A stretch of 64,000 nucleotides of DNA from Georgenia soli (GTDB lineage: Bacteria > Actinomycetota > Actinomycetes > Actinomycetales > Actinomycetaceae), in the NCBI RefSeq assembly GCF_002563695.1, contig NZ_PDJI01000004.1:3286001-3350000 (forward strand). Reading direction: 5' to 3'. The position numbers and the translations under genes are program-made. Position 1 is the stretch's first letter. Each line of letters begins with the position of its first letter. Positions 27,417-50,395 of this stretch are shown here, in pieces. The notes under the pieces are model-generated. The model worked only from the letters and a program-made list of their open reading frames with translations, was not told the DNA's origin and made no database searches.

Positions 27417-27444
27417 TTGACTCTCTCTACATGGAAGGTAACTT
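27417..27444 (+). promoter_or_regulatory. Promoter of uraD-uraH-uox-permease operon
   Basis: TTGACT (27417-27422), 16 bp, TAACTT (27439-27444). The predicted IclR operator overlaps the end of the -10 box, as at the hyi and malate synthase promoters. A perfect ATGGAAG-GTAA-CTTCCAT dyad (27431-27448) overlaps it. Confidence 0.55.
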
Positions 27445-27457
27445 CCATATCGCGGAA
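27443..27457. promoter_or_regulatory. Predicted IclR operator at uraD
   Basis: TTCCATATCGCGGAA, a TTCC-N7-GGAA dyad. It shares the core TATCGCG with the hyi site. It lies over the -10 / start of the uraD promoter, a repressing position. Confidence 0.7.
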
Positions 27458-27481
27458 TCGATGGGGATGACGGAGGGTGTC

Positions 27482-27985
27482 ATGCAGGCCACCGGGCTGG
27501 ACCGCCTGAACGCGGCGGACGCGGACGAGGCGCGGGCGCTGCTGCTGGCGTGCGCGGCCGTTCCGCGCTGGGCCGACGAGGTGGTGCGCGGGCGACCATA
27601 CGCCTCCCTCGAGGACGTTCTCGACGCCGCCCGCAAGGTGGCCGACCCGTGGACCGACGAGGAGATCGACGCCGCCCTCGCCCGCCACCCGCGGATCGGC
27701 GAGCGTGCCGCCGGCGGGGACCGGGACGCCGAGCACTCACGCCGCGAGCAGGCCGGCGTGGCCGGGGCGGACGGCGACGTCGTGCGCCGGCTGGCGGAGG
27801 GCAACCGTGCGTACGAGCAGCGCTTCGGGCACGTCTTCCTCATCAGGGCCGCAGGCCGGGGCCCGGAGGAGATCCTCGCGGCGCTCGACGAGCGCCTGGA
27901 CAACGACCCCGCGACGGAACGCCGGATCGCTGCGGAGCAGCTCCGCGAGATCGCGGTCCTCAGACTCGAAGGAGAGCTCTCGTGA
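27482..27985 (+). CDS. uraD: OHCU decarboxylase UraD
   Basis: Decarboxylates 2-oxo-4-hydroxy-4-carboxy-5-ureidoimidazoline to S-allantoin, the third step of urate breakdown. The 167-aa protein has the catalytic motif with His69 in ARHPRIGERAAG and the conserved FGHVFLIRAAGR segment. ATG at 27482 is preferred because GGAGG lies 6 nt upstream; the in-frame ATG at 27431 lies inside the promoter/operator. It overlaps uraH by 4 bp and opens the operon. Confidence 0.95.
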   Translation: MQATGLDRLNAADADEARALLLACAAVPRWADEVVRGRPYASLEDVLDAARKVADPWTDEEIDAALARHPRIGERAAGGDRDAEHSRREQAGVAGADGDVVRRLAEGNRAYEQRFGHVFLIRAAGRGPEEILAALDERLDNDPATERRIAAEQLREIAVLRLEGELS

Positions 27986-28320
27986 CCTCGCACGTCACCA
28001 CCCACGTCCTCGACGCCGTCGCAGGCGTCCCCGCAGCCGGCATCGGCGTCCGGCTCTCGCGGCACGACGCGGACGCCCTCACCGAGGTGGCCTCCGGCGT
28101 CACCGACGAGGACGGCCGCATCCGCGACCTCGGGCCGGAGCGCCTCGACGCCGGGACCTACCGCATCGTCTTCGCGACCGGGGAGTACTTCGCCGCCCGC
28201 GAGCAGCGCACCTTCTACCCGCAGGTCACCATCGACTTCGCCGTGGAGGACGGGCAGGGCCACTACCACGTGCCGATCCTCCTCAGCCCGTTCGCGTACT
28301 CCACCTACCGCGGGAGCTGA
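27982..28320 (+). CDS. uraH: 5-hydroxyisourate hydrolase (transthyretin-like)
   Basis: Hydrolyses 5-hydroxyisourate to OHCU, the step before UraD. The 112-aa protein shows both family signatures: the N-terminal HVTTHVLDAVAGVPA with catalytic His, and the C-terminal tetrapeptide YRGS. FYPQVTIDF and YHVPILLSPFAYSTY are typical. GTG at 27982 overlaps the uraD stop (GTGA) and has GAAGGAG upstream. A 16-bp tandem repeat lies between it and uox. Confidence 0.95.
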   Translation: MTSHVTTHVLDAVAGVPAAGIGVRLSRHDADALTEVASGVTDEDGRIRDLGPERLDAGTYRIVFATGEYFAAREQRTFYPQVTIDFAVEDGQGHYHVPILLSPFAYSTYRGS

Positions 28321-28465
28321 GGCCCCCTCCTGCCCACGCCTACCGCCCGTCCCGAGGCCGGGAGGAGCGGGACGCCCCCGCGTCGAGCGCGCACCACGCC
28401 GGTGCCGGGGGCGACGGCGGACCCGGACCGCACCGGCGGGCCCACTCTCCGGGGGGCCCGGGGAC

Positions 28466-28545
28466 CTCACCGGCGGGCCCGCTCACCGGCGGGCCCGCTC
28501 ACCGGCGGGCCCGCTCACCGGCGGGCCCGCTCACCGGCGGGCCCG
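28466..28545. repeat. Five perfect 16-bp tandem repeats with internal palindromes
   Basis: CTCACCGGCGGGCCCG is repeated five times without a mismatch; diverged copies lie at about 28430-28465. Successive units create the 10-bp palindrome GCGGGCCCGC, so the transcript could fold into alternative GC hairpins. The array sits in the 277-bp gap between uraH and uox, which otherwise holds only the uox ribosome-binding site. It may separate uox expression from uraDH (inference). Confidence 0.92.
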
Positions 28546-28597: not shown

Positions 28598-29557
28598 ATG
28601 AGCGACACCCTCACCAACCCCGCGACCGGCGACGGCGTCGAGGCGGCCGGCTCGATCGTGCTGGGGGACAACCAGTACGGCAAGGCCGAGGTCCGCCTCG
28701 TCCGCGTCGACCGCGACAAGCCGCGTCACCGCGTCACCGAGCTCTCGGTCACCTCTCAGCTGCGGGGTGACTTCACGGTCGCCCACACCGAGGGCGACAA
28801 CTCGCCCGTGGTGGCGACGGACACCCAGAAGAACACGGTCTTCGCCCTCGCCGGCGAGGGCATCTCCTCCCCGGAGGAGTTCGCGATGCGGCTCGCGGAG
28901 CACTTCACCTCCTCCTTCGACTGGGTCACCGGCGGGCGCTGGGGCGTGAAGGAGTACACCTGGGAGCACATCCCGACGTCCCTGACCAACAACGCCGCCG
29001 ACGGCGAGCACAACCACGCCTTCGTCAAGGGCGGGACCGAGACCCGCACCGCCGTCGTCCAGCGGGACGGCGACGAGGTCTTCGTCGTCGCCGGGCTCGA
29101 GGACCTGAAGGTCCTGAAGTCGACCGGCTCGGAGTTCCACGGGTTCCCGCGCGACCGCTACACCACCCTGGTCGAGACGAACGACCGCATCCTCGCGACC
29201 TCGGTGACCGCCCGGTGGCGGTACCTGCGCACCGACATCGACTTCAACGCGGCCTACGACGACGTGCGCCGGATCCTCCTGGAGACCTTCGCCGACGTCC
29301 ACTCCCTCGCCCTGCAGCAGACGCTGTACCAGATGGGCGCCAAGGTCCTCGAGGCGCACCCGGAGATCGGCGAGATCAAGTTCTCGATGCCGAACCTGCA
29401 CCACTTCGTCGTGGACTTCGAGCCCTTCGGTCTGGAGAACCCGAACGAGGTCTTCTACGCGGCCGACCGGCCCTACGGCCTCATCGAGGGCGAGGTGAAG
29501 CGTTCCGACGTCGCCCCCGAGCCCCGCGCCTGGGCGACCGTGACGGGCTTCTGCTGA
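28598..29557 (+). CDS. uox: Urate oxidase (uricase)
   Basis: Cofactor-free enzyme that oxidises urate to 5-hydroxyisourate. The 319-aa product shows the active-site Lys in DNQYGKAEVRL (Lys29), the Thr-Asp pair in VVATDTQKNTVFALA (Thr74) and the C-terminal NLHHFVVDFEPFG region carrying the catalytic-relay His. Length fits the family (about 300). GAAGGAG lies 6 nt before the ATG. It is placed before an NCS2 permease and after uraDH, completing urate to allantoin. Confidence 0.97.
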   Translation: MSDTLTNPATGDGVEAAGSIVLGDNQYGKAEVRLVRVDRDKPRHRVTELSVTSQLRGDFTVAHTEGDNSPVVATDTQKNTVFALAGEGISSPEEFAMRLAEHFTSSFDWVTGGRWGVKEYTWEHIPTSLTNNAADGEHNHAFVKGGTETRTAVVQRDGDEVFVVAGLEDLKVLKSTGSEFHGFPRDRYTTLVETNDRILATSVTARWRYLRTDIDFNAAYDDVRRILLETFADVHSLALQQTLYQMGAKVLEAHPEIGEIKFSMPNLHHFVVDFEPFGLENPNEVFYAADRPYGLIEGEVKRSDVAPEPRAWATVTGFC

Positions 29558-29599: not shown

Positions 29600-31372
29600 A
29601 TGACTGACACGACAGCAACCGTCGAGCCGCCCACGGTGGCCCGCCCGGAGGACGAGCGGTACTCCGTCGGGAGGACCTTCCTCTACGGCCTCCAGCACAT
29701 CATGACGATGTACGGCGGCGTCATCGCCCCGCCGATCATCGTCGGGCAGGCCGCGGGCCTGGACGGCGCGCAGATCGGGCTCCTGGTCTCGGCCGCGCTC
29801 CTGGTCAGCGGTGCCGCCACGATCCTCCAGACCGTCGGCATCCCGTTCTTCGGGTCCCAGCTGCCGCTCGTCCAGGGGATCTCCTTCGCCTCCGTCTCCA
29901 CGATGGTGGCGGTGGCGACCGGCGACGGCGGACTGCCCGCCGTCTTCGGCGCGATCATCGTGGCCGGTCTGGTGGGGCTGGCGATCTCGCCCTTCTTCGC
30001 CCAGGTGATCCGGTTCTTCCCGCCCGTCGTCACCGGGACGATCATCACCGTGATCGGCATCTCGCTGCTGCCGGTGGCGGTGCGCTGGGTGATGGGCTCG
30101 AACCAGGACGCCCCCGACTGGGGATCGACGGCGAACATCGGCCTGGCGATCTTCACCCTCGTGGTCGTCCTCCTGCTCAGCCGGTTCCTCCAGGGCACGA
30201 TCTCGCGCCTGTCCATCCTGCTCGGCCTCGTCATCGGCACCCTCGCGGCCGGCGTGGTCGGGATGGCGGACTTCTCCGCCATCGCGCAGGGGCCGACGGT
30301 GGCCCTGCCGACGCCGTTCGCCTTCGGCATGCCGGTCTTCGAGGCCGGCGCGATCATCTCGATGATCATCGTGATCCTCGTGATCATGACCGAGACGACG
30401 GCGGACGTCATCGCCGTCGGCGAGGTCGTGGGGTCGAAGGTGGACGCCCGCCGCGTGGGCGACGGCCTGCGCGCCGACATGATCGCCACCACCCTGGCGC
30501 CGTTGCTGAACAGCTTCCCGGCGAGCGCCTTCGCGCAGAACGTGGGCCTGGTGGCCATCACCGGCATCAAGAGCCGCTGGGCCGTGGCGGCCGGCGGGTC
30601 CGTGCTCTTCGTGCTCGGGCTGCTGCCCGTGCTCGGGCGCGTCGTGGCCGCGATCCCGATGCCCGTGCTGGGCGGGGCGGGGATCGTGCTGTTCGGGTCC
30701 GTCGCCGCCTCCGGGATCCGCACCCTGTCGAAGGTGAAGTACGACAACAACCTCAACCTCACCCTCGTGGCGGTCGCCATCTCCTTCGGCGTCATCCCGA
30801 TCGCCGTGCCGACCTTCTACGACGCCTTCCCGCAGTGGGTCGGGATGGTCTTCCACTCCGGCATCTCGGCGGCGTCCGTGGTGGCGGTGCTGCTCAACAT
30901 CCTCTTCAACGAGGTCCGCTGGGGCCGCGCGAAGGACCCGTCCGTGTTCACGGCCGGCTCCTCGGCCCGGCTGGTGGTCGCGGAGGAGCAGGAGGCACGC
31001 CGCGTGGAGTACTACGGGCTGCTCGACGCGCAGCGCTCCGGGTCCTGGCGGGCGCGCCGTGACGCCGAGCTCCGGGCCCGGGCGCGCAGCGGGCACGGCC
31101 GGCGTTCGGGGTCGCTCTCCGCGATCGACCTCGACTGCGACGGCATCCCGGACATCCTCCAGATCCGGAACCGGCAGCGTGCGGCGGGCTCACCCGCCGG
31201 CGCCGCGGGAGGGGCGGAGCCGTCCCGCGCGCGTCACCTCGGCACCGGCCCGGCCGACGGCGGAGCGGCCGATGCCGGTCCCGCCACCGCTGGCGTGGCC
31301 ACCGCCGGTGCGGCCACCGCTGGTCCGGCCGCCGTGGGACCGGCCCACGCCCGGGCGGCCGAGCTCGGATGA
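29600..31372 (+). CDS. NCS2-family purine (urate/xanthine) permease with unusual C-terminal tail
   Basis: A membrane symporter of the nucleobase-cation symporter 2 family. Residues 25-440 form the usual 12-14 helix core, including the signature QNVGLVAITG (about 312-321) and GGSVLFVLGLLPVLG. The operon context makes urate the best substrate guess, with xanthine or uracil possible. The protein is 590 aa, about 100-150 longer than usual. The extra tail has a basic Arg-rich stretch (WRARRDAELRARARSGHGRR), a D-x-D-x-D-G-I-P-D motif (residues 510-518) resembling a calcium-binding loop, then low-complexity Ala/Gly repeats. GGGAG precedes the ATG. Confidence 0.9.
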   Translation: MTDTTATVEPPTVARPEDERYSVGRTFLYGLQHIMTMYGGVIAPPIIVGQAAGLDGAQIGLLVSAALLVSGAATILQTVGIPFFGSQLPLVQGISFASVSTMVAVATGDGGLPAVFGAIIVAGLVGLAISPFFAQVIRFFPPVVTGTIITVIGISLLPVAVRWVMGSNQDAPDWGSTANIGLAIFTLVVVLLLSRFLQGTISRLSILLGLVIGTLAAGVVGMADFSAIAQGPTVALPTPFAFGMPVFEAGAIISMIIVILVIMTETTADVIAVGEVVGSKVDARRVGDGLRADMIATTLAPLLNSFPASAFAQNVGLVAITGIKSRWAVAAGGSVLFVLGLLPVLGRVVAAIPMPVLGGAGIVLFGSVAASGIRTLSKVKYDNNLNLTLVAVAISFGVIPIAVPTFYDAFPQWVGMVFHSGISAASVVAVLLNILFNEVRWGRAKDPSVFTAGSSARLVVAEEQEARRVEYYGLLDAQRSGSWRARRDAELRARARSGHGRRSGSLSAIDLDCDGIPDILQIRNRQRAAGSPAGAAGGAEPSRARHLGTGPADGGAADAGPATAGVATAGAATAGPAAVGPAHARAAELG

Positions 31373-31398: not shown

Positions 31399-32151
31399 TC
31401 AGCGCACGCTGATGAGCTGGCCGGCCACCTGGTCGGCCAGCTCGTGCAGCACCGGCAGGGCCCGCTCGCCGAACTCGTACGTGACGCGGGCGGCCGGGCC
31501 GGAGACGGAGACCGCGGACGGCGTCGGGGCGTCGGGCACCGCGACGGCGAAGCACCGCACGCCGATCTCCTGCTCGCCGTCGTCGACGGCGTAGCCCTGC
31601 GCGCGGATCTTGTCGAGCTCGGTGAGAAGGTCCTCGACGTTCGTGATGGTCGCCTCCGTGGCCGGCGGCATGCCGGTGCGGGCGACGATCTCGCGCACGG
31701 TGGCGTCCGGCAGCTGGGCCAGCACCATCTTGCCCACGCCGGTGCTGTGGCAGTAGACGCGGCGGCCCACCTCGGTGAACATGCGCATCGAGTGCGGCGA
31801 GGCCGCCTGGGCCACGTAGACCGCCATGTCGCGGTCGATCATCGCCATGTTCGCCGTCTCGCCCAGCTCCCGGGCCACCCGCTCGAGGTGGGGGCGGGCG
31901 CCCGCACCCAGCTGGCGGCCGGCGCTCTCGCCCAGGCGAATCAGCCTCGGGCCCAGCGTGTAGCGGCGCGACGGCAGCTGGCGGGCGTAGCCCCGGCCCA
32001 CCAGGGTCCGCATGAGACGGTGGATGGTGGGCAGCGGCAGGCCGGAGCTGGTGGCCAGCTCGCTCAGCCCGGCGGCGCCGCCCAGGTCGGTCATGATCTC
32101 CAGCAGGTCGATCGCCCGGTCAACCGACTGGACCCCGTTGCCCTCGGTCAC
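31399..32151 (-). CDS. IclR-family transcriptional regulator of the purine/glyoxylate genes
   Basis: A 250-aa regulator with an N-terminal winged helix (VQSVDRAIDLLEIM, LPLPTIHRLMRTLVGRGY, about 5-70) and an IclR effector domain (about 85-250) with YCHSTGVGKMVLAQ, RGQGYAVDDGEQEIGVRCFAV-type and VSVSGPAARVT segments. It resembles AllR/GclR, whose effectors are allantoin or glyoxylate (family knowledge); the effector here is inferred. GTG at 32151 has AGGAGG 7 nt upstream. It is divergent from malic enzyme 2, and a TTTC-N7-GAAA dyad lies between them. The same dyad type recurs at four other promoters in the window. Confidence 0.93.
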   Translation of the reverse strand: MTEGNGVQSVDRAIDLLEIMTDLGGAAGLSELATSSGLPLPTIHRLMRTLVGRGYARQLPSRRYTLGPRLIRLGESAGRQLGAGARPHLERVARELGETANMAMIDRDMAVYVAQAASPHSMRMFTEVGRRVYCHSTGVGKMVLAQLPDATVREIVARTGMPPATEATITNVEDLLTELDKIRAQGYAVDDGEQEIGVRCFAVAVPDAPTPSAVSVSGPAARVTYEFGERALPVLHELADQVAGQLISVR

Positions 32152-32222: not shown

Positions 32223-32242
32223 TAGTGTTTCACATGTCGAAA
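32223..32242. promoter_or_regulatory. Predicted IclR operator and -10 box at malic enzyme 2
   Basis: TTTCACATGTCGAAA (32228-32242) is a TTTC-N7-GAAA dyad. It overlaps the last base of a TAGTGT box (32223-32228) facing the malic enzyme gene. The site lies in the 126-bp gap between divergent iclR and malic enzyme genes, so it may serve autoregulation too. Confidence 0.65.
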
Positions 32243-32277: not shown

Positions 32278-33753
32278 ATGGGTCTGCCAAGTCCTAGCTA
32301 CACGATCACCCTGCGGGTGGAGGTGCCGGCGTCGCACCGCGCCACGAGCACGGTGGTGTCGGCGGTGGCCGAGGCCGGAGCCGCGGTCATGGGCGTCGAC
32401 ATCGTCCAGTCCACGAGCACGAAGATCGTCGTCGACGTCACCTGCGACACCGTCGACGGCGAGCACGGCGAGCAGGTGCGCGACGCACTGAACGCCATCC
32501 AGGGCGTGCGGGTGCAGAAGATGTCGGACTCGACGTTCCTCATGCACCTCGGCGGCAAGATCGAGGTCAGCCTCAAGGTGCCGCTGAAGACGCGGCGCGA
32601 CCTCTCCCGCGCCTACACCCCCGGTGTCGCCCGGGTCTGCACCGCCATCGCCGAGAAGCCCGAGGACGCGCGCCGCCTGACGATCAAGCGCAACACCGTC
32701 GCCGTCGTCACGGACGGCACCGCGGTGCTCGGGCTCGGGGACATCGGCCCCGCCGCCGCCCTGCCGGTGATGGAGGGCAAGGCCGCCCTGTTCAAGGAGT
32801 TCGCGAACGTGGACGCCTGGCCGGTGTGTCTGGACACCAAGGACACCGAGGAGATCATCTCGATCGTCAAGGCCATGGCCCCGGTGTACGGCGGGGTGAA
32901 CCTGGAGGACATCTCCGCCCCCCGCTGCTTCGAGATCGAGGCCCGCCTGCGCGAGGAGCTGGACATCCCCGTCTTCCACGACGACCAGCACGGCACCGCC
33001 ATCGTGGTGCTGGCGGCGCTGATCAACGCGCTCAAGGTCGTGGGCAAGAAGATGGAGGACGTGCGCATCGTCGTCTCCGGCGTCGGCGCCGCGGGCACCG
33101 CGATCATCAAGCTGCTCATGGCCCAGGGTGCGCGGAACGTCATCGGCTTCGACCGTCGCGGCGCCCTGCACCCCGGCGTGCGCAACGGTGACGGCCACCG
33201 GAACTGGATCATCGACAACGCGAACCCGGAGGGCTTCGTCGGCACCCTCAAGGAGGGCCTGGCCGGCGCGGACGTCTTCATCGGCGTCTCCGCGGGCAAC
33301 ATCCTCACCGGCGCCGACGTGGCGACCATGAACGACGGGGCGATCGTGTTCGCCCTGGCGAACCCGACCCCCGAGGTCGACCCGATCGAGGCGGGGGAGA
33401 CGGCCGCCGTCGTGGCCACGGGACGCAGCGACTACCCGAACCAGATCAACAACGTCCTCGCCTTCCCCGGGCTCTTCCGCGGCCTGCTCGACGCGGGCGC
33501 CACCAAGATCTCGCCGGAGCTGCTCCGGGTGGCGGCCGTGGCGATCGCCGAGGTGGTCTCCGAGGAGGAGCTCAACCCGGCCTTCATCATCCCCGGCGTC
33601 TTCGACGTCCGCGTGGCCGAGGCCGTGGCCGACGCCGTGCGTACCGAGGCCCAGCGCGACCTCGCCGAGCAGGCCGAGGCGGCCGGCGACGTCGGGAGCG
33701 CGGAGCAGGGGACCGGCACGCGGCCCGCCGAGCCCGTCGGGGCCGCCCGATGA
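32278..33753 (+). CDS. NAD-dependent malic enzyme with N-terminal ACT domain (copy 2)
   Basis: A 491-aa close paralogue of the enzyme at 25042, with the same ACT domain ([19 protein letters not shown]), malic domain and NAD-binding domain ([17 protein letters not shown]). Position and operator tie it to glyoxylate use: malate synthase makes malate from glyoxylate and acetyl-CoA, and this enzyme would send it on to pyruvate (inference). A 257-bp stretch (32527-32783) is identical in DNA to copy 1, while flanking parts differ. The start is ATG at 32278; only a weak GAGAGGA-like element lies upstream. Its stop overlaps the DUF6986 gene by 4 bp. Confidence 0.93.
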   Translation: MGLPSPSYTITLRVEVPASHRATSTVVSAVAEAGAAVMGVDIVQSTSTKIVVDVTCDTVDGEHGEQVRDALNAIQGVRVQKMSDSTFLMHLGGKIEVSLKVPLKTRRDLSRAYTPGVARVCTAIAEKPEDARRLTIKRNTVAVVTDGTAVLGLGDIGPAAALPVMEGKAALFKEFANVDAWPVCLDTKDTEEIISIVKAMAPVYGGVNLEDISAPRCFEIEARLREELDIPVFHDDQHGTAIVVLAALINALKVVGKKMEDVRIVVSGVGAAGTAIIKLLMAQGARNVIGFDRRGALHPGVRNGDGHRNWIIDNANPEGFVGTLKEGLAGADVFIGVSAGNILTGADVATMNDGAIVFALANPTPEVDPIEAGETAAVVATGRSDYPNQINNVLAFPGLFRGLLDAGATKISPELLRVAAVAIAEVVSEEELNPAFIIPGVFDVRVAEAVADAVRTEAQRDLAEQAEAAGDVGSAEQGTGTRPAEPVGAAR

Positions 33754-35021
33754 GCACCACCCTGGACGAGGGTGCCCTGCGCGCCGTCGAGGACCTCCTC
33801 GCCCCGGTCGACGCCCGGCTCGACCGGGACTACCCCGGTGACGACGTCAGCCGCCAGCCCGTCCACACCGTCTACGTCCCGGCGGACCGGTACGGCGTCG
33901 GGCTGGCGCGGGACTGGGGGGAGCAGGCTCGGGCCGCCCTAGAGCGGGCCGGCGGGACCGAGGCCCTCCTCGAGGCGGCACGGGTGCCCGCGGACCTGCG
34001 CGACGCCGTCGCCGCACAGGTGGCGAGCAAGCTCGAGTGCGAGCCGGTCGAGGACCTGCGCATCGACCTCGAGGACGGCTACGGCGACCACGGCGACGCC
34101 GAGGACGACGTGGCGGTCGCCGCCGGGCGCACCCTGCGGACCGAGCTCGAGCAGGGGGTCGCGACGCCGTTCGTGGGCATCCGGTTCAAGAGCTTCGAAC
34201 GGCCGACCAGGCGCCGGGGCCTGCGCACGCTCGACCTGTTCCTCACCACGCTGCTCGAGGGCGGCGACCTCCCGGACGGGCTCCTGCTCACCCTGCCGAA
34301 GGTCACCGCCGTCGAGCAGGTCGAGGCGATGGTCGCCGTCTGCGACCGGATCGAGCAGGCGCACGGGCTGCCGGCCGGCCGCCTCGGGTTCGAGGTGCAG
34401 GTGGAGACGCCCCAGTCGATCCTCGGCCCGGACGGCACCGCGCTGGTGGCGCGGATGGTGCACGCGGGGGAGGGGCGGGTCACCGGGCTGCACTACGGCA
34501 CCTACGACTACTCGGCGTCCCTCGGCATCTCCGCCGCCCAGCAGTCGATGGAGCACCCGGCGGCCGACCACGCCAAGGCCGTCATGCAGCTCGCGGCCGC
34601 GGGCACGGGTGTCCGCCTCTCCGACGGGTCCACCAACGTGCTGCCGGTCGGCGAGCCGGAGGACGTGCGCTCGGCCTGGGCGCTGCACGCCAGACTGGTC
34701 CGCCGTTCGCTCGAGCGCGGGTACTACCAGGGTTGGGACCTGCACCCGGCCCAGCTGCCCAGCCGGTTCGCCGCGACCTACACCTTCTACCGGGAGGGGA
34801 CGGCCGCGGCCGCGGCGCGGCTGCGCGCCTACCTCGCCCGGGAGGAGGGGGCCGTCATGGACGAGCCGGCCACCGCCCGCGCGCTGGCGTGGTTCCTCCA
34901 GCGCGGCCTGGACTGCGGCGCGGTCCTGGGCGAGGAGCTGGCCGCGGCCGGTGTCGACCCGAGCGCGCTCGGTGCGCTGCTGAGGCCGCGCGCCGACGCG
35001 GAGGCCGGCACCCCGGCCTGA
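33750..35021 (+). CDS. DUF6986 / HpcH-type aldolase-like protein
   Basis: A 423-aa protein related to the HpcH/HpaI and citrate-lyase-beta TIM barrels. Visible core parts are DLRIDLEDGYGDHGDAEDD, PFVGIRFKSFERPTRRR, LLLTLPKVTAVEQVEAM and LGFEVQVETPQSILGPDG, which supply the acidic metal and Arg substrate-binding residues of that superfamily. Such genes are common beside allantoin and glyoxylate genes in actinobacteria, and a malyl- or glyoxylate-type C-C lyase is a reasonable guess, but the substrate is unknown. The ATG overlaps the malic enzyme stop, so the pair is coupled. Confidence 0.85.
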   Translation: MSTTLDEGALRAVEDLLAPVDARLDRDYPGDDVSRQPVHTVYVPADRYGVGLARDWGEQARAALERAGGTEALLEAARVPADLRDAVAAQVASKLECEPVEDLRIDLEDGYGDHGDAEDDVAVAAGRTLRTELEQGVATPFVGIRFKSFERPTRRRGLRTLDLFLTTLLEGGDLPDGLLLTLPKVTAVEQVEAMVAVCDRIEQAHGLPAGRLGFEVQVETPQSILGPDGTALVARMVHAGEGRVTGLHYGTYDYSASLGISAAQQSMEHPAADHAKAVMQLAAAGTGVRLSDGSTNVLPVGEPEDVRSAWALHARLVRRSLERGYYQGWDLHPAQLPSRFAATYTFYREGTAAAAARLRAYLAREEGAVMDEPATARALAWFLQRGLDCGAVLGEELAAAGVDPSALGALLRPRADAEAGTPA

Positions 35022-35252: not shown

Positions 35253-35263
35253 TTCTCTACTCT
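35235..35263 (+). promoter_or_regulatory. Promoter of hyi-glxR-gcl-glycerate kinase-allB
   Basis: TTGACC (35235-35240), 17 bp, TACTCT (35258-35263). Spacing and layout match the malate synthase promoter, including two operator-like dyads starting at the end of the -10 box. Confidence 0.7.
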
Positions 35264-35298
35264 TTCAGCAAGAGGAACTGACATTCCGTATCGCGAAA
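35263..35298. promoter_or_regulatory. Tandem predicted IclR operators at hyi
   Basis: TTTCAGCAAGAGGAA (35263-35277) and TTCCGTATCGCGAAA (35284-35298), both TTYC-N7-GRAA dyads. Their starts are 21 bp apart, two helical turns. They cover the transcription start and leader. Confidence 0.75.
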
Positions 35299-35309: not shown

Positions 35310-36140
35310 ATGGCTTCGCAGATCCCCTACACGGTGAACGCCTCGATCCTGCTCACCGGCCTGCCGCTGCTGGAGCGCCCGGCGGCGGTCGGGGCCGCGG
35401 GGTTCGGCGGCGTGGAGCTGTGGTGGCCGTTCCCCACCGCGACCCCGGACGCGGACGAGGTGGACGCCCTCGTGCGCGCCCTCGAGCAGGCCGACGTCCA
35501 GCTGACCGGGCTGAACTTCCTCGCGGGCGACATGCCCGCCGGTGACCGCGGCCTCGTCTCCTGGCCGGGTCGTGAGGAGGAGCTGCGCGCCAACCTCGAC
35601 GTCGTCACCGCGATCGGCGAGCGCACCGGGTGCCGCGCGTTCAACGCGCTGTACGGCAACCGCGTCGAGGGCGCCGACCCGGCCGCCCAGGACGACCTCG
35701 GCGCCGAGAACCTGCACCTGGCCGCGCAGGCCGTGGCGCGCATCGGCGGCACCGTGCTGCTCGAGCCCGTCTCCGGCACCCCGGCGTACCCGCTGAAGAC
35801 CTCCGCCGACGCCGTCGCCGTCATCGACCGCGTGGCCTCCGAGCACGGCTCGACCAACATCGGGCTCCTCCTCGACGTCTACCACCTCTCCGTCAACGGC
35901 GCGGACGTCGACGCCGAGATCGCGGCCTACCGCGACCGCGTCGCCCACGTGCAGATCGCCGACGCCCCCGGCCGCGGCGCCCCCGGCAGCGGTGACCTCC
36001 CGATCACCCGGTGGATCGAGGACCTCCGCGCCGGCGGCTACGCCGGCCCGGTCGGCCTGGAGTACAAGACCGACGACGCCGACCCGTTCGCCTGGCTCCC
36101 GCGCGGCGAGCGCGCGGCCGAGCCCGCCGTCGCCCGCTGA
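35310..36140 (+). CDS. hyi: Hydroxypyruvate isomerase
   Basis: A 276-aa TIM-barrel enzyme that interconverts hydroxypyruvate and tartronate semialdehyde in the glyoxylate carboligase pathway. It shows the family N-terminus YTVNASILLTGLPLLERP, the WWPFPTATP loop, a metal-site Glu in VLLEPVSGTPAYPL and LLLDVYHLSVNG with HVQIADAPGRGAPGSGD. ATG at 35310 has AGAGG 7 nt upstream. First gene of a five-gene operon with spacing of 84 bp or less. Confidence 0.93.
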   Translation: MASQIPYTVNASILLTGLPLLERPAAVGAAGFGGVELWWPFPTATPDADEVDALVRALEQADVQLTGLNFLAGDMPAGDRGLVSWPGREEELRANLDVVTAIGERTGCRAFNALYGNRVEGADPAAQDDLGAENLHLAAQAVARIGGTVLLEPVSGTPAYPLKTSADAVAVIDRVASEHGSTNIGLLLDVYHLSVNGADVDAEIAAYRDRVAHVQIADAPGRGAPGSGDLPITRWIEDLRAGGYAGPVGLEYKTDDADPFAWLPRGERAAEPAVAR

Positions 36141-42307: not shown

Positions 42308-42336
42308 TTGACCCGCTGCGGGGCGCCGCCTACTGT
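42308..42336 (+). promoter_or_regulatory. Promoter of malate synthase
   Basis: TTGACC (42308-42313), 17 bp, TACTGT (42331-42336). It is the same layout as the hyi promoter. Confidence 0.7.
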
Positions 42337-42371
42337 TTCACTAGGAAGAGATTCCGTTCCGTATCGTGAAA
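42336..42371. promoter_or_regulatory. Predicted IclR operators at malate synthase
   Basis: TTCCGTATCGTGAAA (42357-42371) differs from the proximal hyi operator by one base. A half-matching TTTC site starts 21 bp upstream at 42336, the same spacing as at hyi. Confidence 0.75.
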
Positions 42372-42382: not shown

Positions 42383-43969
42383 GTGGCAACTCCGGACGGC
42401 CTGACGATCACCGGCGAGATGGGCGAGCGGTACGAGGAGGTGCTGACCCCGGCGGCGCTGGAGCTGATCGCCTCGCTGCACCGGCAGCTGAACGCCCGTC
42501 GCCTCGAGCTCCTCGAGGCGCGCGCACGCCGCGTGGCGGACCTGGCGAACGGCGGCACCCTCGACTTCCTCGCCGAGACCGCGCACATCCGCGAGGACGA
42601 CTCCTGGCAGGTCGCCCCGCCCGCCCCCGGCCTGGTCGACCGCCGCGTCGAGATCACCGGCCCCACCGACCGGAAGATGACGATCAACGCGCTGAACTCC
42701 GGCGCCAAGGCGTGGCTGGCCGACCACGAGGACGCCAACACCCCGCAGTGGAGCGCCGTGGTCGGCGGGCAGCTCAACCTGCTCGACGCCATCAACCGCA
42801 CCATCGACTTCACCGCCGAGAACGGCAAGACCTACGCCCTGAAGCCGGACGAGGAGCTGGCCACGATCATCGTGCGCCCCCGCGGCTGGCACCTGCCGGA
42901 GAAGCACATCCTCGTCGACGGCGAGCAGACGTCCGGCTCCCTCGTCGACTTCGCGCTCTACATCGCCACCGCCGGCCTGCGGCAGATCGAGAAGGGCCTC
43001 GGCCCGTACTTCTACCTGCCGAAGATGGAGTCCCACCTCGAGGCGCGCCTGTGGAACGACGCGTTCAACATCGCCCAGGACGCGCTCGGCATCCCGCGCG
43101 GCACGGTGCGGGCCACCGTGCTCATCGAGACCTACCCCGCCGCGTTCGAGATGGAGGAGATCCTCTACGAGCTGCGCGAGCACTCCTCGGGCCTGAACGC
43201 CGGCCGCTGGGACTACATGTTCTCGGTCATCAAGTCCTTCCGGACGCGCGGCAAGGACTTCCTGCTGCCCGACCGCAACGCCGTGACGATGACCGTGCCG
43301 TTCATGCGCGCCTACACCGAGCTGCTCGTGCGCACCTGCCACAAGCGCGGCGCCCACGCGATCGGCGGCATGGCGGCCTTCATCCCCAGCAGGGACGAGG
43401 AGGTCAACAAGGCCGCGTTCGAGAAGGTGCGCGCGGACAAGACCCGCGAGGCGAACGACGGCTTCGACGGCTCCTGGGTGGCCCACCCGGGCATGGTCGA
43501 GGTCTGCAAGGAGGTCTTCACCTCCGTGCTCGGTGACCGCCCCAACCAGCTCGACAAGAAGCGCGAGGACGTCCACGTCACCGCCGCCCAGCTCCTCGAC
43601 GTCGCCAGCACGCCGGGCGAGGTCACGGAGGCGGGCCTGCGCAACAACATCTCCGTGGGCATCCAGTACCTGCAGGCGTGGCTCGGAGGCCTGGGCGCCG
43701 TCGCCATCTTCAACCTCATGGAGGACGCCGCGACGGCGGAGATCTCACGCTCGCAGGTCTGGCAGTGGCTGCACAACGACATCACGCTCGCCGACACCGG
43801 CCACCGGGTCACCCGCGAGCTCATCGACCGGATCGTCGAGGAGGAGATCGCCAAGCTCCCCGGTGACCCGGCCGACTACGAGGAGGCGCGGCAGACCTTC
43901 CTCGAGGTCGCCGTCGCCGACGAGTACGCGGACTTCCTCACCCTGCCGGCGTACGAGCGCATGGCCTGA
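42383..43969 (+). CDS. aceB: Malate synthase A
   Basis: Condenses glyoxylate with acetyl-CoA to malate. The 528-aa protein matches the A isoform, not the 720-aa G form. Visible are the [23 protein letters not shown] segment, [12 protein letters not shown] with catalytic Arg, the metal Glu in [19 protein letters not shown], and the catalytic Asp near the C-terminus in [23 protein letters not shown] at 42383 is the first start after the operator, with a weak AGAGAG site. Isocitrate lyase is not adjacent, so it serves glyoxylate from urate/glycolate rather than only the glyoxylate shunt (inference). Confidence 0.96.
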
Positions 43970-44081: not shown

Positions 44082-45587
44082 ATGACGTCCACCGACACCG
44101 CCGCCGTGCCCACCGGCAGGGCGGCCGCCGACGCCCTCGGCCGCGTCACCGCCGAGCTCTCCGGCGCGCTCGGCGCGGAGCAGGTGATCACCGACCGTCA
44201 GCGCCTGCGCACGTACGAGTGCGACGGGCTGGCCCAGTACAAGGTTGTCCCGGGACTCGTGGTGCTCGCGCGCGACGCCGACGACGTGGCCGCCGCGGTC
44301 GGTGCGTGCGCCCGGCACGGGGTCCCGTTCGTGGCCCGCGGCTCCGGGACCGGCCTGTCCGGCGGGGCCCTGCCGCAGGCGGAGGGCGTCCTGATCGTCA
44401 TGTCGCAGATGCGGCAGATCAGGGAGATCGACGCCGCCAACCAGCGGGCCGTCGTCGACCCGGGCGTCATCAACCTGGCGCTCACCCGCGAGACCACCCC
44501 GGACGGCTACTACTTCGCCCCGGACCCCTCCAGCCAGTCGGTGTGCTCCATCGGCGGCAACGTCGCCGAGAACTCCGGCGGCGCGCACTGCCTGAAGTAC
44601 GGCTTCACCACCAACCACGTGACGGGGCTGGACCTGGTGACGCCCGCCGGCGAGCACGTGGAGATCGGCGGCAAGGCGCCCGACCCGCCCGGCTACGACC
44701 TGCTCGGCGCCCTCGTCGGCTCCGAGGGCACCCTCGGCATCGTCACCGAGGTCACCGTCCGCCTGACCCGGCTGCCGCAGGAGGTCCAGACGGTCCTGGC
44801 GGGCTTCCGCTCCACGGACGACGCCGGAGCCGCCACCTCCGCCATCATCGCCGCCGGCGTCATCCCGGCCGCGATCGAGATGATGGACGCCCTGTCCATC
44901 GAGGCCGCCGAGAAGGCGGTCGCCTGCGGGTACCCCGCGGGCGCCGGGGCGGTGCTGGTCGTCGAGGTCGACGGCGCGGCCGCCGACGTCGCCGGCGAGC
45001 TGGCCGAGGTGCTGCGCCACTGCGAGGCGAACGGCGCCTTCGAGACGCGCATCGCCGCCGACGACGTCGAGCGCGCCCTGATCTGGAAGGGCCGCAAGTC
45101 GGCCTTCGCGGCCGTCGGCCGGATCAGCCCCGACTACATCGTCCAGGACGGGGTCATCCCCCGCACCGCCCTGCCCCAGGTGCTGCGCCAGATCGCCGAC
45201 CTCGCCGCCGAGCGCGGGGTGCGGGTGGCCAACGTCTTCCACGCCGGGGACGGCAACCTCCACCCGCTGGTGCTCTTCGACGACGCCGAGGAGGGCGCCG
45301 CCGAGCGTGCCGAGGAGGTCGCCGGCGGCATCCTCGAGCTGTGCATCGCCAACGGCGGCTCCATCACCGGCGAGCACGGCGTGGGCTCCGACAAGGCCAG
45401 GTACATGCCGAAGATGTTCACCGAGGAGGACCTCGACACCATGCAGGCCGTGCGCTGCGCGTTCGACCCCGACAACATCTCGAACCCGGGCAAGGTCTTC
45501 CCCACCCCGCGCCTGTGCGGGGAGCGGCCCGGGCGGCGCCAGGGCGCCCACCCGCTGCAGGAGGCCGGACTGGCGGAGGTCTTCTGA
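44082..45587 (+). CDS. glcD: Glycolate oxidase subunit GlcD (FAD-linked)
   Basis: A 501-aa catalytic flavoprotein of the GlcDEF complex, which oxidises glycolate to glyoxylate. The PCMH FAD domain (about 50-230) has PFVARGSGTGLSGGALP and PDPSSQSVCSIGGNVAENSGG. The C-terminal FAD-oxidase domain has VANVFHAGDGNLHPL and the conserved GSITGEHGVGSDKARYMP. GAGGAGG lies 6 nt before the ATG. A D-lactate oxidase is the main alternative, but the glcE and glcF neighbours and glyoxylate context favour glycolate. It overlaps glcE by 1 bp. Confidence 0.93.
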   Translation: MTSTDTAAVPTGRAAADALGRVTAELSGALGAEQVITDRQRLRTYECDGLAQYKVVPGLVVLARDADDVAAAVGACARHGVPFVARGSGTGLSGGALPQAEGVLIVMSQMRQIREIDAANQRAVVDPGVINLALTRETTPDGYYFAPDPSSQSVCSIGGNVAENSGGAHCLKYGFTTNHVTGLDLVTPAGEHVEIGGKAPDPPGYDLLGALVGSEGTLGIVTEVTVRLTRLPQEVQTVLAGFRSTDDAGAATSAIIAAGVIPAAIEMMDALSIEAAEKAVACGYPAGAGAVLVVEVDGAAADVAGELAEVLRHCEANGAFETRIAADDVERALIWKGRKSAFAAVGRISPDYIVQDGVIPRTALPQVLRQIADLAAERGVRVANVFHAGDGNLHPLVLFDDAEEGAAERAEEVAGGILELCIANGGSITGEHGVGSDKARYMPKMFTEEDLDTMQAVRCAFDPDNISNPGKVFPTPRLCGERPGRRQGAHPLQEAGLAEVF

Positions 45588-46882
45588 TGGCCGCGCGAAC
45601 CGGCGCGGCCGCCGCCCACCAGGGCGACGCCCGGGCCGCCGGCCTGGACCTGACGGCCCTGGCCCGAAGCCTCGACGGCGCCGGCGAGGTCCGCGAGGCC
45701 GGCCCGGACGACGTCGTCGACGGCGTCCCCGCGGCGGCCGTCGCCCGGCCAACCACGGTCGAGGGAGTGTCCGCGGTCCTTCGCGAGGCCACCGCCCAGG
45801 GCATGGTCACGGTCGCACGGGGCGCGGGCACCGCGCTGACGTGGGGCTGCCCGCCCGAGCGGGCCGACCTGCTCCTCGACACCACCGGGCTCGACCGGCT
45901 GGTCGAGCACGAGGCGGGCGACCTCGTCGTCGTCGCCGAGGCGGGCCTGGCCCTGCGCGACCTGCAGGAGCACGTCGGCCGGGCCGGGCAGGAGCTCGTC
46001 GCCGACGTCCCGCGCGAGCGCCTCGAGGGCGGCTCCACCGTCGGCGGGGCGCTGGCGACCGGTGCCTCCGGCCCCCGGCGCCTCCAGCGGCTGGCGCTGC
46101 GCGACCTGGTGCTGGGCACCACCGTCGTGCTCGCCGACGGCACCGTCGCGACGTCGGGCGGCAAGGTCGTCAAGAACGTGGCCGGGTACGACCTGGCCAA
46201 GCTGATGACCGGTTCCTTCGGCACGCTCGGCGTCGTCGTCCGCGCCGCGTTCCGCCTGCACCCGGTGCGCCCGGACCGCGCGTTCGTCCTGCGCACCGGC
46301 CCGCTGGAGGAGGTCGCGGACCTCGCCCGCGCCGTCGTCGCCTCCCAGCTGGCGCCCGCCGCCGTCGAGCTCGACCGACCCGCCGGCAGCGACGAGGCCA
46401 GCCTCGCGGTGCTCCTCGAGGGCACCGGCGACGCCGTCGCCGCCCGCGCCGCCGACACGGCCGCCCTCGTGGGCGGGGCCGTGGGGGAGGAGCCGTCCTG
46501 GTGGGGGCGCCTGCCCGGGGGCGACAGCCTGGCCAAGGCGACGGCGACCCTCGTCGGGGTGAAGGACCTGCTCCTGGCGGCGCGTGCCGCCGAGCAGGCC
46601 CACGGCGCGGCCGTCGCGCTACGCGGCTCCGCCGTCGGCGTGCTCCACGCGGGCGTGACCGCGCCCGGCGCCGGGGCCCTGGCGGGTGTCGTCGCCGGGC
46701 TGCGGGCCGCCGCCCCGAGCCCCCGGGAGGGGACGGTGACCGTGCTGACGGTGCCGGCCGAGCTGCGTGAGGGGCTCGACGTGTGGGGCCCGGTCGGCGG
46801 GCTCGACCTCATGCGCAGCATCAAGGAACGACTGGACCCCGGCCGGAACCTCGCGCCCGGCCGCTTCGTGGGAGGCATCTGA
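45587..46882 (+). CDS. glcE: Glycolate oxidase subunit GlcE (FAD-binding)
   Basis: A 431-aa second FAD-binding subunit, with the shortened PCMH domain VARGAGTALTWG, LEGGSTVGGALATGASGPRRLQR and KVVKNVAGYDLAKLMTGSFGTLGV, diagnostic of GlcE. The C-terminal end LMRSIKERLDPGRNLAPGRF is also typical. The ATG overlaps the glcD TGA (TGATG) and the TGA overlaps glcF in the same way, so the three are translated together. Confidence 0.93.
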   Translation: MAARTGAAAAHQGDARAAGLDLTALARSLDGAGEVREAGPDDVVDGVPAAAVARPTTVEGVSAVLREATAQGMVTVARGAGTALTWGCPPERADLLLDTTGLDRLVEHEAGDLVVVAEAGLALRDLQEHVGRAGQELVADVPRERLEGGSTVGGALATGASGPRRLQRLALRDLVLGTTVVLADGTVATSGGKVVKNVAGYDLAKLMTGSFGTLGVVVRAAFRLHPVRPDRAFVLRTGPLEEVADLARAVVASQLAPAAVELDRPAGSDEASLAVLLEGTGDAVAARAADTAALVGGAVGEEPSWWGRLPGGDSLAKATATLVGVKDLLLAARAAEQAHGAAVALRGSAVGVLHAGVTAPGAGALAGVVAGLRAAAPSPREGTVTVLTVPAELREGLDVWGPVGGLDLMRSIKERLDPGRNLAPGRFVGGI

Positions 46883-48369
46883 TGACCGTCGAGACGCCCA
46901 AGGGCCAGATGGGGGACGCGCAGCCGGCCCAGGCGGGCACCACGCTGCCCGACGTGCTCGGGATGGCCGCCTTCGACGACCACCACCCGCCCGCGCGGGA
47001 CCTGATCGACGACTGCGTGCACTGCGGTTTCTGCCTGCCCGCGTGCCCCACCTACACCCTGTGGGGCGAGGAGATGGACTCCCCGCGTGGGCGCATCTAC
47101 CTCATGAAGCAGGGCCTCGAGGGCGAGCCGATGAGCCCCTCCATGGTCCAGCACATCGACAGGTGCCTTGGCTGCATGGCCTGCGTGACGGCCTGCCCGT
47201 CCGGCGTGCAGTACGACAAGCTCATCGAGGCGACCCGCCAGCAGGTCGAGCGGCGGGGCTCCCAGCACCGGTCGCTGGCCGACCGTGCCCTGCGCGAGGG
47301 AATCTTCCAGCTCTTCCCGCGGCCCGGCCGGCTGCGCCTCGTGCGCGGCCCGCTGGCGCTGTACCAGAAGAGCGGGCTGAGCCGGCTCGTGCGCGGCTCG
47401 AAGGTGCTCGAGAAGATCTCGCCCACCCTCGCGACCATGGAGGCGATCGCGCCGCCGATCGAGCGCCGGGTGAGGATCCCCGCCTACCTGCCCGCCAAGG
47501 GGCAGCGGCGCATGACCGTCGGGCTCCTGCTGGGCTGCGTGCAGCGCGAGTTCTACCCCGGCGTCAACGCCGCCACCGTGCGGGTGCTGAACATGGAGGG
47601 CTGCGACGTCGTCACCCCGCCGACGCAGGGCTGCTGCGGCGCGCTGTCGGTCCACGCCGGCCGGGAGGACGAGGGGCTGCGTTACGCACGCAACCTCATC
47701 GACACCTTCTCCGAGTCCGGCGTCGAGCGCATCGTCGTCAACTCCGCCGGCTGCGGCTCCACCATGAAGGACTACGCCCACCTGCTGGCTGACGACCCGG
47801 CCTACGCCGAGCGCGCCCGTGCCTTCTCGGAGAAGGTCCGCGACATCTCCGAGATCCTCGTCGAGCTGGGGCCGGTGGCCCCGCGCCACCCGCTGCCGGT
47901 GACCATCGCCTACCACGACGCCTGCCACCTCTCGCACGCGCAGAAGGTCCGCTCCCAGCCGCGCCAGCTGCTCCGCGGGATCCCCGGCCTGACGATCAAG
48001 GAGATCGCCGAGGGTGACCTGTGCTGCGGGTCCGCCGGCATCTACAACCTCGTCAACCCCGGCCCCGCGCGCGAGCTCGGAGACCGCAAGGCCACGAACG
48101 TCGCCGCCACCGAGGCGGAGCTGCTCGTCACGTCCAACCCCGGGTGCCTGCTGCAGATCACCGACGCGCTCGGGCGTCAGGGCAAGCACATCTCGACCGC
48201 GCACATGATCCTCGTGCTCGACGCGTCGCTGCTGGGCAAGGACGTGGACACCCTCCTGCAGGAGGCGCCCTCCGCCACCCGGCCGGCCGCGCCAGAGCCG
48301 GAGCCGACGACGCCGGAGGCGCGCTCCGGCGGGTGCGCGTGCGGGAAGCCGGGCGGCTGCGGCGGCTGA
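46882..48369 (+). CDS. glcF: Glycolate oxidase iron-sulfur subunit GlcF
   Basis: A 495-aa electron-transfer subunit. Two CxxCxxCxxxCP [4Fe-4S] motifs are visible at Cys45/48/51/55 and Cys95/98/101/105. Two CCG domains follow (PTQGCCGAL and GDLCCGSAGIY), which bind further Fe-S or contact the quinone acceptor. Normal members end near AHMILVLDASLLG; this one adds about 45 residues, Pro-rich then Cys/Gly-rich (GGCACGKPGGCGG). GGAGG precedes the ATG. Last gene of glcDEF. Confidence 0.94.
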   Translation: MTVETPKGQMGDAQPAQAGTTLPDVLGMAAFDDHHPPARDLIDDCVHCGFCLPACPTYTLWGEEMDSPRGRIYLMKQGLEGEPMSPSMVQHIDRCLGCMACVTACPSGVQYDKLIEATRQQVERRGSQHRSLADRALREGIFQLFPRPGRLRLVRGPLALYQKSGLSRLVRGSKVLEKISPTLATMEAIAPPIERRVRIPAYLPAKGQRRMTVGLLLGCVQREFYPGVNAATVRVLNMEGCDVVTPPTQGCCGALSVHAGREDEGLRYARNLIDTFSESGVERIVVNSAGCGSTMKDYAHLLADDPAYAERARAFSEKVRDISEILVELGPVAPRHPLPVTIAYHDACHLSHAQKVRSQPRQLLRGIPGLTIKEIAEGDLCCGSAGIYNLVNPGPARELGDRKATNVAATEAELLVTSNPGCLLQITDALGRQGKHISTAHMILVLDASLLGKDVDTLLQEAPSATRPAAPEPEPTTPEARSGGCACGKPGGCGG

Positions 48370-48457
48370 GGCTGCGCCGTCGGCCGTGCAGGCGGTACGC
48401 CGCGCGGCTGTCCGGCGACCTGTCCGCAGGCGGGCGTGCCCCGCTCTCCGAACGGAA

Positions 48458-48491
48458 GAGGCCCCGTCCAGCAGGTGCTGGACGGGGCCTC
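48458..48491. terminator. Bidirectional terminator between glcF and the permease
   Basis: A 15-bp perfect stem (48458-48472 with 48477-48491) begins GAGGCCCCGTCCAGC and closes on an AGGT loop. It lies between convergent genes. Confidence 0.85.
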
Positions 48492-48521
48492 TCACCGCGT
48501 GGTGGCGGCTCGTGGAGCGCG

Positions 48522-50339
48522 TCAGGCCTTGACGAGCTGCAGCTCCGGGTTCGGTGCGTCGGTCTTCGTCGCGATCTTCCACGCCGTGACCGCCAGGGCA
48601 ACCAGCACGGCGAGGAAGACGATCAGCCCGGCGTTGAGCCCGATGCCGAAGATCCACATGTACCCGATGGACCCAGCTGCCAGGCAGTAGTACGTCATCG
48701 GGATGATCGTCTTGCGGATGAGGTCGCCCTCCCGGCCGAGCAGGCCGACGGTGGCGGCCGCCGCGACGACGTTGTGGACCGCCACCATGTTGCCGGCGGC
48801 GCCACCGACGGCCTGGATCGCCACCACGGTCTCGGGGCTGGAGGCCCCGATGCCCTCGCCGGTGGAGAACTGGAAGAGGGCGAACATCATGTTGGACACG
48901 GTGTTCGACCCGGCGACGAAGGCGCCGAGAGCACCGATGAACGGCGCGAGGATCGGCCAGTTCTCCCCGGTGACGTTGGCGGCTGCCTCGGCGAGGGTGA
49001 TGGGCATCGAGTCGTACCCGGCGCCGTTGTAGTCACCGCCGGAGTTGATGAAGATGCGCACGAGCGGAAGTGCGCACAGGAGGGCGACGGCCGCCCCGGC
49101 CAGCTGTCCGCTCGCCACCTTCCACGAGGCGGCGATCTGCTTGCCGGTCATCCGGTGCAGGACGTAGGTGACCAGGCAGGCCAGCAGGAAGATCGCGCCG
49201 GGGGAGTAGATGAGGTCCATGTTCTGGGAGATCCCGGACCCGAAGATGTCGTTGACCTTGATGACGGCCGGGCCGGTCAGGAACGCCTTGACCGTGGGGA
49301 CGTTGCGGGTCAGCAGCAGCAGCGCCGCGACGATGACGTACGGGCTCCATGCCAGGGCGATCGGCATCTTCTTGGTCAGCGTGGCGGCCTCGGCGTCGGG
49401 GTTCACCGAACCCATCCACCGGTCGCTCCAGCGCTCGCGGGGCGGGAAGTCCCAGACGTCCTTGGGCATGAGGAAGCCCTTGGAGGACGTGTACATCACC
49501 AGGACGAGGCCGAGGAAGCCTCCGATCATCGACGGGAACTCGGGACCGAGCACGTACGCGACGGTGACGTAGGGGACGATCATGGCGAGGGCCGCGTAGA
49601 CGGTGAACGGTGCGACTGCCAGACCGGCACGGAAGCTGCGCTTCTCGCCGAAGAAGCCTGTCATGAGGCAGACGAGGAAGAGCGGCACCAGGATCCCGAC
49701 GATCGCGTGGATCGTCGCGACCTGGGTGGCCGTGTGGGCCACGAAGCCGGCGTGGTCCAGGCCGAGCTCGTCCGCCCTCGCCTGGACGTTGGGCACGAAG
49801 GCGCCGTCGGTGCCTGCGAGGCCCGTGCCGACGCCGGTGATCATGGGGGTGCCGACGGCACCGAAGCTCACCGGGGTGGACTGGATGATGAGGCCCGCCA
49901 TCACGGCCGCCATCGCGGGGAAGCCGAGGGCCAGCATCAGGGGAGCGACCACCGCCGCGGGCGTGCCGAACCCGGCGGCGCCCTCGATGAAGGAGCCGAA
50001 GAGCCAGGCGACGATGACGACCTGGACGCGGCGGTCGGCGCTGATCGTGGTGAAGCCGGCGCGGATCGACTGCAGCGCGCCGCTCTTGGTGATCGTCTCG
50101 AGCAGCAGGAGGGCGCCGAACACGATCCAGAGCAGGCCGATCGCGATGAGAAGCCCCTGGACGACGGAGGCGCCGATCGTCGTCCAGCTCATCTTCCAGA
50201 CGGTCAGGGCGATGACGACCACGACCGCGAGGCCGACGGGCATCGCGTACTTGGCCGGCCATCTCAGCCAGAGCAGGAGAGTGCCGACCACGAGGATCGG
50301 CAGGAGGGCGAGCAGAGCGAGTACTGCGAGGTTGTCCAT
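48522..50339 (-). CDS. LctP-family permease, probable glycolate/lactate transporter
   Basis: A 605-aa membrane protein with 12-14 hydrophobic helices, of the L-lactate permease family that includes E. coli LldP and the glycolate permease GlcA. Family segments include [38 protein letters not shown], and [21 protein letters not shown], with [16 protein letters not shown] between. Convergence with glcDEF and a predicted IclR operator upstream favour glycolate, with lactate possible (inference). ATG at 50339 follows GGAGG by 4 nt; the upstream in-frame ATG lacks a site. Confidence 0.92.
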
Positions 50340-50380
50340 GAGACCTCCAGGTGCCGGCACCATCGCCGGAGTTGCACGGG

Positions 50381-50395
50381 TTCCACATTATGGAA
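50381..50395. promoter_or_regulatory. Predicted IclR operator at the LctP permease
   Basis: TTCCACATTATGGAA, a TTCC-N7-GGAA dyad 42 bp upstream of the permease start. It is the most symmetric member of the set. On the minus strand it contains a CATAAT -10-like box. Confidence 0.65.

Follow-up and report, generated by a model that had tools for sequence, protein, structure and literature searches.

How genes for oxidising urate, breaking down allantoin, salvaging glyoxylate and taking up glycolate, lying in separate operons, could be brought under common control is the question raised by a stretch of the Georgenia soli genome (4.27 Mb in four contigs), a 64-kb window with 72% GC; the window means that whole stretch throughout. 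Five of its promoters carry the palindrome TTYC-N7-GRAA, and a gene for an IclR-family regulator lies among them. The evidence supports one operator type as the link between the separate operons of the region, and sequence comparison makes the IclR gene amid them the best candidate, and a well-supported one, for the operator-binding protein. It is very probable that this protein, of the AllR type, binds these sites, represses the five promoters together with a remote allE-type gene, and is released by glyoxylate and perhaps by allantoate.

A shared operator at five promoters

Searches used the pattern TTYC-N7-GRAA, with the backward pattern, spacers of 5, 6, 8 and 9 and shuffled sequences as controls. 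Genomes were compared between G. soli and 58 relatives (59 in total; the relatives carry G handles), and loci between G. soli and the 17 relatives with an IclR orthologue, at about 40 kb each and 696 kb in total (20 kb each for G003 and G004, where the contig stops). A second sample held 80 named loci (37 Streptomyces iclR), a few of them from the same genomes as the G handles. Gene identities came from Pfam and NCBIfam profile searches with family cut-offs.

A preliminary description of this DNA had placed six TTYC-N7-GRAA dyads at five promoters, and all six were recovered where it had put them; a single base does separate the proximal hyi dyad (35284) from the malate synthase dyad (42357), and a TATCGYG core is present at uraD, as it had also reported. 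Shuffling the window 100 times gave 0.74 matches on average and never more than 4, against the six observed. The genome as a whole holds 35 overlapping matches (34 places; the backward pattern gives 15), and six of the 34 places fall within 23 kb, where an even spread would give about 0.2. The other 28 places (29 rows) comprise 18 matches over long coding-like frames and 11 elsewhere, three of the latter inside tRNA genes. Trained on 45 distinct sites from the relatives, with the window excluded, a matrix ranks the six dyads first to sixth in the window. The operators and the elements beside them are as follows.

27422..27436, + strand: weaker partner dyad TCTCTCTACATGGAA, 21 bp upstream of the uraD dyad (matrix rank 7)
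27443..27457, + strand: uraD operator dyad TTCCATATCGCGGAA (pattern, conservation, matrix rank 2)
32228..32242, + strand: iclR/malic enzyme operator dyad TTTCACATGTCGAAA, between both genes (third box GGAA at 32218-32221)
35263..35277, + strand: hyi distal operator dyad, overlapping the last base of a -10-like hexamer
35284..35298, + strand: hyi proximal operator dyad, 21 bp from the distal one (pattern, conservation)
42336..42349, + strand: shortened conserved element TTTCACTAGGAAGA before the aceB dyad (by eye)
42357..42371, + strand: malate synthase (aceB) operator dyad TTCCGTATCGTGAAA (pattern, conservation)
50381..50395, - strand: lctP permease operator dyad TTCCATAATGTGGAA, given on the gene strand (matrix rank 1)

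A genome search with TTYCRTATCGYGRAA, allowing two mismatches, returned 14 matches, five of them sites already known. As for the further claim that the dyads lie in or just after the core promoter, a loose scan makes it plausible at three promoters, uraD, hyi and aceB, with -35/-10-like pairs immediately ahead of the dyads (8 of 12 bases in each case); iclR gave a weak pair (7 of 12 bases), and malic enzyme and lctP gave none. A stricter promoter tool, run on 26500-43000, predicted none of these promoters and made its sole prediction elsewhere.

The preliminary description was correct as to the dyads and left out the third half-site and the partner dyads. An exact third half-site, giving GRAA-N6-TTYC-N7-GRAA, occurs at 32 of 55 distinct promoter sites (other spacings: N5 in 10, N9 in 4) and at 6 of 32 other sites. 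At uraD the third box, GGAA-N6-TTCC, is the right half of the partner dyad at 27422; this dyad scores 11.7 bits, within the range of five shuffle tops (9.3-13.3), so that what speaks for it is only its 21-bp spacing. The 21-bp tandem at hyi is kept in all five relatives with hyi at least 80% identical; among four relatives with hyi at 51-55% identity, two have a single site and two have none. Two uraD promoters have dyads 20 bp apart. Here aceB departs from the three-box or tandem form, with the shortened conserved element instead, similar elements (by eye) preceding aceB in G001, G002, G005, G006 and G007, and the third box of lctP matches at only three of four bases. Column frequencies over 52 distinct sites give the consensus WTTYCRYW3RYGRAAW, of which the counts themselves yield only the inner RY-W-RY, as the TTYC and GRAA ends are imposed by the pattern searched for and the outer W lies outside the count. 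This fits WTT-11-AAW, a motif class of the IclR family for which tandem dyads 18-22 bp apart and three-box sites have been described (main text of PMC8222616). With their N6 third boxes and the hyi tandem, the sites here take the form of IclR operators with 18-22 bp between centres, resembling PcaU-type operators in their three alternating boxes and in tandem dyads at that distance (same source).

The sites are conserved. In the 18-genome locus set, counting sites within 150 bp before a gene, uraD has one in 10/10 cases, hyi in 7/9, aceB in 8/11 and lctP in 4/4, iclR in 14/20 with paralogues counted and the malic enzyme gene mae in 9/18 with second copies counted. Inner genes (hiuH, uox, glxR, glxK, bcp, glcD, glcE, glcF) have none in 63 cases; gcl has one in 1/13, allB in 3/11, the xanthine permease gene xanP in 2/9 and the DUF6986 gene in 1/10, the last three being the first gene of an operon in some genomes. 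Among the named loci of Streptomyces, a site precedes iclR in 35/37, allB in 34/37 and aceB in 33/34, the iclR and allB counts being largely the same sites, as these genes are divergent. The other named loci have it before uraD in 15/15, hyi in 18/23, lctP in 3/3, iclR in 22/41, mae in 12/32 and aceB in 9/28. Spacer 8 also turns up often at certain of these promoters (lctP 4/4; Streptomyces iclR 31/37), mostly because its matches have one half in common with an N7 site (15/28 such matches in the relatives, 101/135 in the named loci).

The three-box form and a remote allE gene

In the whole genome, GRAA-N6-TTYC-N7-GRAA has five placements and its backward control none. They lie at uraD, at iclR/mae, twice at hyi and at C4:3471762-3471786, that is, at four promoters, all of the pathway; since the form was chosen after the window and the relatives had been viewed, only the fifth placement is independent. 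It marks the following gene.

G000:C4:3471840-3472652 (L217:9841-10653): remote allE-type gene, outside the window, with the three-box operator about 54 bp upstream

The allE product scores above two NCBIfam cut-offs, that for (S)-ureidoglycine aminohydrolase (460.7 vs 338 bits) and that for bifunctional allantoicase/(S)-ureidoglycine aminohydrolase (446.7 vs 350 bits). In the nearest relative (protein 93% identical) the same block lies upstream, with one dyad mismatch; four other relatives have no strict site upstream of allE. The gene was found in 6 of the 59 genomes, all of which have an iclR orthologue, and it directly follows the DUF6986 gene in G040, G041 and G058 and allB in G052. The forecast that a genome motif scan would turn up allantoate-hydrolysis genes was thereby borne out, and the accompanying forecast of xdh failed: the genome has three xdh-like genes, and the 7 kb surrounding each yielded no strict site.

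Several other candidate members were rejected. The xdh genes (three with MoCoBD_1) were set aside at the stringency of the strict pattern only, and no strict site was found for a second malate synthase (C4:913679) or a second malic enzyme (24874-26508). M20 hydrolases, considered as the allantoate enzyme, gave nine matches, and the sole strict site in their 1.5-kb flanks lies inside a coding frame and was taken as chance. The two malic enzymes (24874-26508 and 32278-33753), 87% identical, flank the urate operon, with the operator only at the second.

Across nine genomes of the genus Georgenia there are 29 three-box placements against one backward, and 28 of them sit at pathway promoters by coordinate reading, four (G003, G004) by neighbourhood only and two (G007) before malate synthase G; the remaining one is G004 C5:27024. 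At least one match occurs in 40 of the 59 genomes, and in several of these matches and controls are alike. The G007 operator, a 21-bp tandem (L036:4011-4046), precedes malate synthase G, next to which lies a second AllR-like gene; the operator seems to track function rather than malate synthase subfamily. The same site was also seen between an amidohydrolase and a deaminase-permease pair (L052:6748, G040) and between an amidohydrolase and a permease in Pseudarthrobacter enclensis (L142:16803), loci that possibly serve guanine use.

The regulator and its alternatives

The product of the central iclR gene has both regulator domains above cut-off (HTH_IclR, 64.9 bits against 22; IclR_C, 138.1 bits against 24). 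Fourteen of the 58 relatives have an orthologue at 58-88% identity and three more a weaker one (44-46%), and the sites are tied to this orthologue. With G. soli included, a site lies within 200 bp before iclR in 12 of the 15 genomes whose orthologue has at least 58% identity. Best aceB loci (30 aceB loci in all, anchored by tblastn) have a site in 10 of 16 genomes with an orthologue, own included, and in none of 10 genomes without one, and none of four second copies examined has it. Within the genus, 7 of the 8 genomes with an orthologue have a site before the best aceB. G008, a genome of the same genus without an orthologue (best match 37%), keeps an aceB that is 87% identical, with no site before it and no three-box site genome-wide. 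The regulator is linked to the sites by cross-genus conservation, the site at its own promoter, the missing sites in G008 and the match to a published motif class.

Systems of this kind have been described before in Streptomyces and E. coli, and the preliminary description was silent on Streptomyces AllR. DNA binding by AllR of Streptomyces coelicolor is reportedly (work of Navone et al. in 2015) released by allantoate or glyoxylate. Orthology and the shared neighbours allB and aceB place the regulator with Streptomyces AllR: the IclR proteins of the Streptomyces loci are 63-68% identical, allantoinase and malate synthase lie beside them, and 35/37 iclR and 33/34 aceB promoters carry the same TTYC-N7-GRAA. 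The comparison included S. coelicoflavus (L160, 63%), S. coelicolor not being among the loci. What differs from Streptomyces is that sites here stand at the urate operon, at malic enzyme-DUF6986 and at the permease too; uraD in the Streptomyces loci has a site in 0/3, which are few cases.

With AllR and IclR of E. coli the protein shares the family, apparently most of the glyoxylate-pocket residues and, presumably, the control of gcl/allantoin or glyoxylate-shunt genes (available text of PMC11323563), but it reaches only 100.4 bits against the AllR cut-off of 406 (NF007548) and 136 bits against the IclR cut-off of 380, and its gene set differs from both. The residues of E. coli IclR that contact the glyoxylate oxygens are Gly160, Ala161, Asp212, Ser239 and Ser241 (same text); in the alignment four of the five are kept (G138, D190, S215 and S217, with Val139 for Ala161; positions hand-counted), and release of the regulator by glyoxylate appears likely from this comparison. 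The best NCBIfam match is BhcR of Paracoccus denitrificans, a glyoxylate-sensing IclR-family regulator of glyoxylate use; the score of 175.3 bits lies below the NF045644 cut-off of 350, and BhcR regulates the beta-hydroxyaspartate cycle from a putative site upstream of the -35 region (PMC11323563, available text).

Several observations weigh against the preferred reading of this regulator. No site precedes the iclR orthologues of G058, G040 and G041 (59-62%) or the second copy in G007 (77%); six of the 16 best aceB loci in orthologue-bearing genomes lack one, as do 19 of the 28 non-Streptomyces named aceB loci; and three of four hydrophobic-patch residues differ from those of E. coli IclR. Many three-box matches also occur without a close orthologue, in G009 (16, control 0), G019 (14, control 2) and G023 (7, control 0); the form is therefore not specific to this regulator outside the genus, and these matches may belong to other IclR proteins. 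The G. soli genome holds 29 matches to HTH_IclR, so that the palindrome could be recognised by an IclR protein other than this one; among the paralogues listed, the best-scoring is 35% identical and another 37%, and group-1 IclR motifs are much alike between orthologous groups (main text of PMC8222616). The dyads would then be real and bound by another paralogue, or by a regulator with a like palindrome, with the central iclR controlling only part of the region. This appears quite unlikely, as the site precedes iclR in those 12 of 15 genomes and at 35/37 Streptomyces loci, and both the aceB site and any three-box site are missing from G008, which has no orthologue.

It is unlikely, too, that the protein is a glyoxylate-dependent activator or dual regulator like BhcR and not a simple repressor. 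Two points do count against simple repression, namely that BhcR is the best model (175 bits, cut-off 350) and that the BhcR paper, in its available text, proposes activation of the enzyme operon (PMC11323563). Against activation, the dyads of uraD, hyi and aceB lie across or behind a -10-like hexamer, a repressor position, whereas the putative BhcR site is upstream of -35, and the S. coelicolor homologue is cited as a repressor (PMC12772271, available text). The chance that the palindromes are accidental matches in AT-richer promoter DNA is close to negligible. The TTYC and GRAA halves are AT-rich and promoters are likely to be AT-richer than genes at 72% GC, but in the 696 kb the pattern reaches 125 matches per Mb, against 24-40 for spacers 5, 6, 8 and 9 and 5.7 for the backward pattern, which makes these controls 3-22 times rarer in the same regions; the positions are also conserved, and the three-box backward control is zero in the G. 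soli genome.

Proposed regulon, DUF6986 and meaning

The preferred reading is repression by the central IclR protein; the operon limits, the binding, the repression and the ligand we infer. The genes of this part of the window are these.

27482..27985, + strand: uraD, OHCU decarboxylase (profile search)
27982..28320, + strand: hiuH, HIU hydrolase, transthyretin family (profile search)
28598..29557, + strand: uricase (profile search)
29600..31372, + strand: xanthine permease, pbuX/NCS2 (profile search)
31399..32151, - strand: iclR, IclR-family regulator of the AllR type, proposed binder of all sites (HTH_IclR, IclR_C)
32278..33753, + strand: malic enzyme (profile search)
33750..35021, + strand: DUF6986 protein, distant HpcH/HpaI aldolase relative (profile search)
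35310..36140, + strand: hyi, hydroxypyruvate isomerase-like (scores 227 bits; the family cut-off is 353)
36199..37080, + strand: glxR, tartronate semialdehyde reductase-like (domains; name from neighbourhood)
37166..38941, + strand: gcl, glyoxylate carboligase (NCBIfam)
38946..40091, + strand: glxK, glycerate kinase (profile search)
40088..41467, + strand: allB, allantoinase (NCBIfam)
41678..42154, + strand: bcp-like peroxiredoxin, AhpC/TSA (profile search)
42383..43969, + strand: aceB, malate synthase A (profile search, NCBIfam)
44082..48369, + strand: glcD-glcE-glcF, glycolate oxidase subunits (FAD_binding_4 in glcE; CCG and Fer4 in glcF; glcD named from position and gene order)
48522..50339, - strand: lctP, L-lactate/glycolate permease family (profile search)

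The allantoinase gene, among those from hyi onward, was absent from the preliminary description. A terminator-like inverted repeat of 20 pairs lies at 35049-35091, between the DUF6986 gene and the hyi promoter.

The IclR protein (31399-32151) would be an actinobacterial AllR-type regulator that binds the palindrome WTTYCRY-W3-RYGRAAW on or just after the -10 region at the five promoters. A third GRAA half-site six bases outside, or a second dyad 20-21 bp away (two helical turns), is often present, and two dimers could lie side by side on one DNA face. With substrate absent, the protein most likely represses uraD-hiuH-uricase-permease, its own gene together with malic enzyme-DUF6986, hyi-glxR-gcl-glxK-allB, aceB-glcDEF, lctP and the remote allE; glyoxylate, and perhaps allantoate, would release it.

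The DUF6986 gene is in line with malic enzyme here and stands directly before allE in the three genomes named above. Of the 15 genomes whose iclR orthologue reaches at least 58% identity, 14 have a strong match to the family (E below 1e-100), as do 2 of the 44 others. Ureidoglycolate lyase (PF04115) was not found in the G. soli genome by a search that detected the E. coli control; one step of the pathway is therefore open, and DUF6986 is one candidate for it. As a tentative suggestion, with the odds against it, DUF6986 may be an undescribed enzyme of the ureidoglycolate-glyoxylate node that stands in for ureidoglycolate lyase or condenses glyoxylate with a keto acid.

A literature search, with most subscription journals beyond its reach, found no paper naming DUF6986 and none recognised as dealing with this regulon in Georgenia. 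The words 'uric' and 'malate synthase' are absent from the main text of Suvorova and Gelfand 2021 (PMC8222616), whose supplements may cover the regulon. Within the limits of these searches, the reach of the system to urate oxidation, malic enzyme-DUF6986, glycolate oxidase, the permease and the remote allE was not found described.

In summary, the locus offers a clear, testable map of how one regulator could join the oxidation of urate and the breakdown of allantoin to the salvage of glyoxylate and the uptake of glycolate in a group of actinobacteria. Given that systems of the kind are known, the surprise is modest. The operator led to a remote allantoate gene, and a conserved but uncharacterised family, DUF6986, would be placed in a defined pathway.

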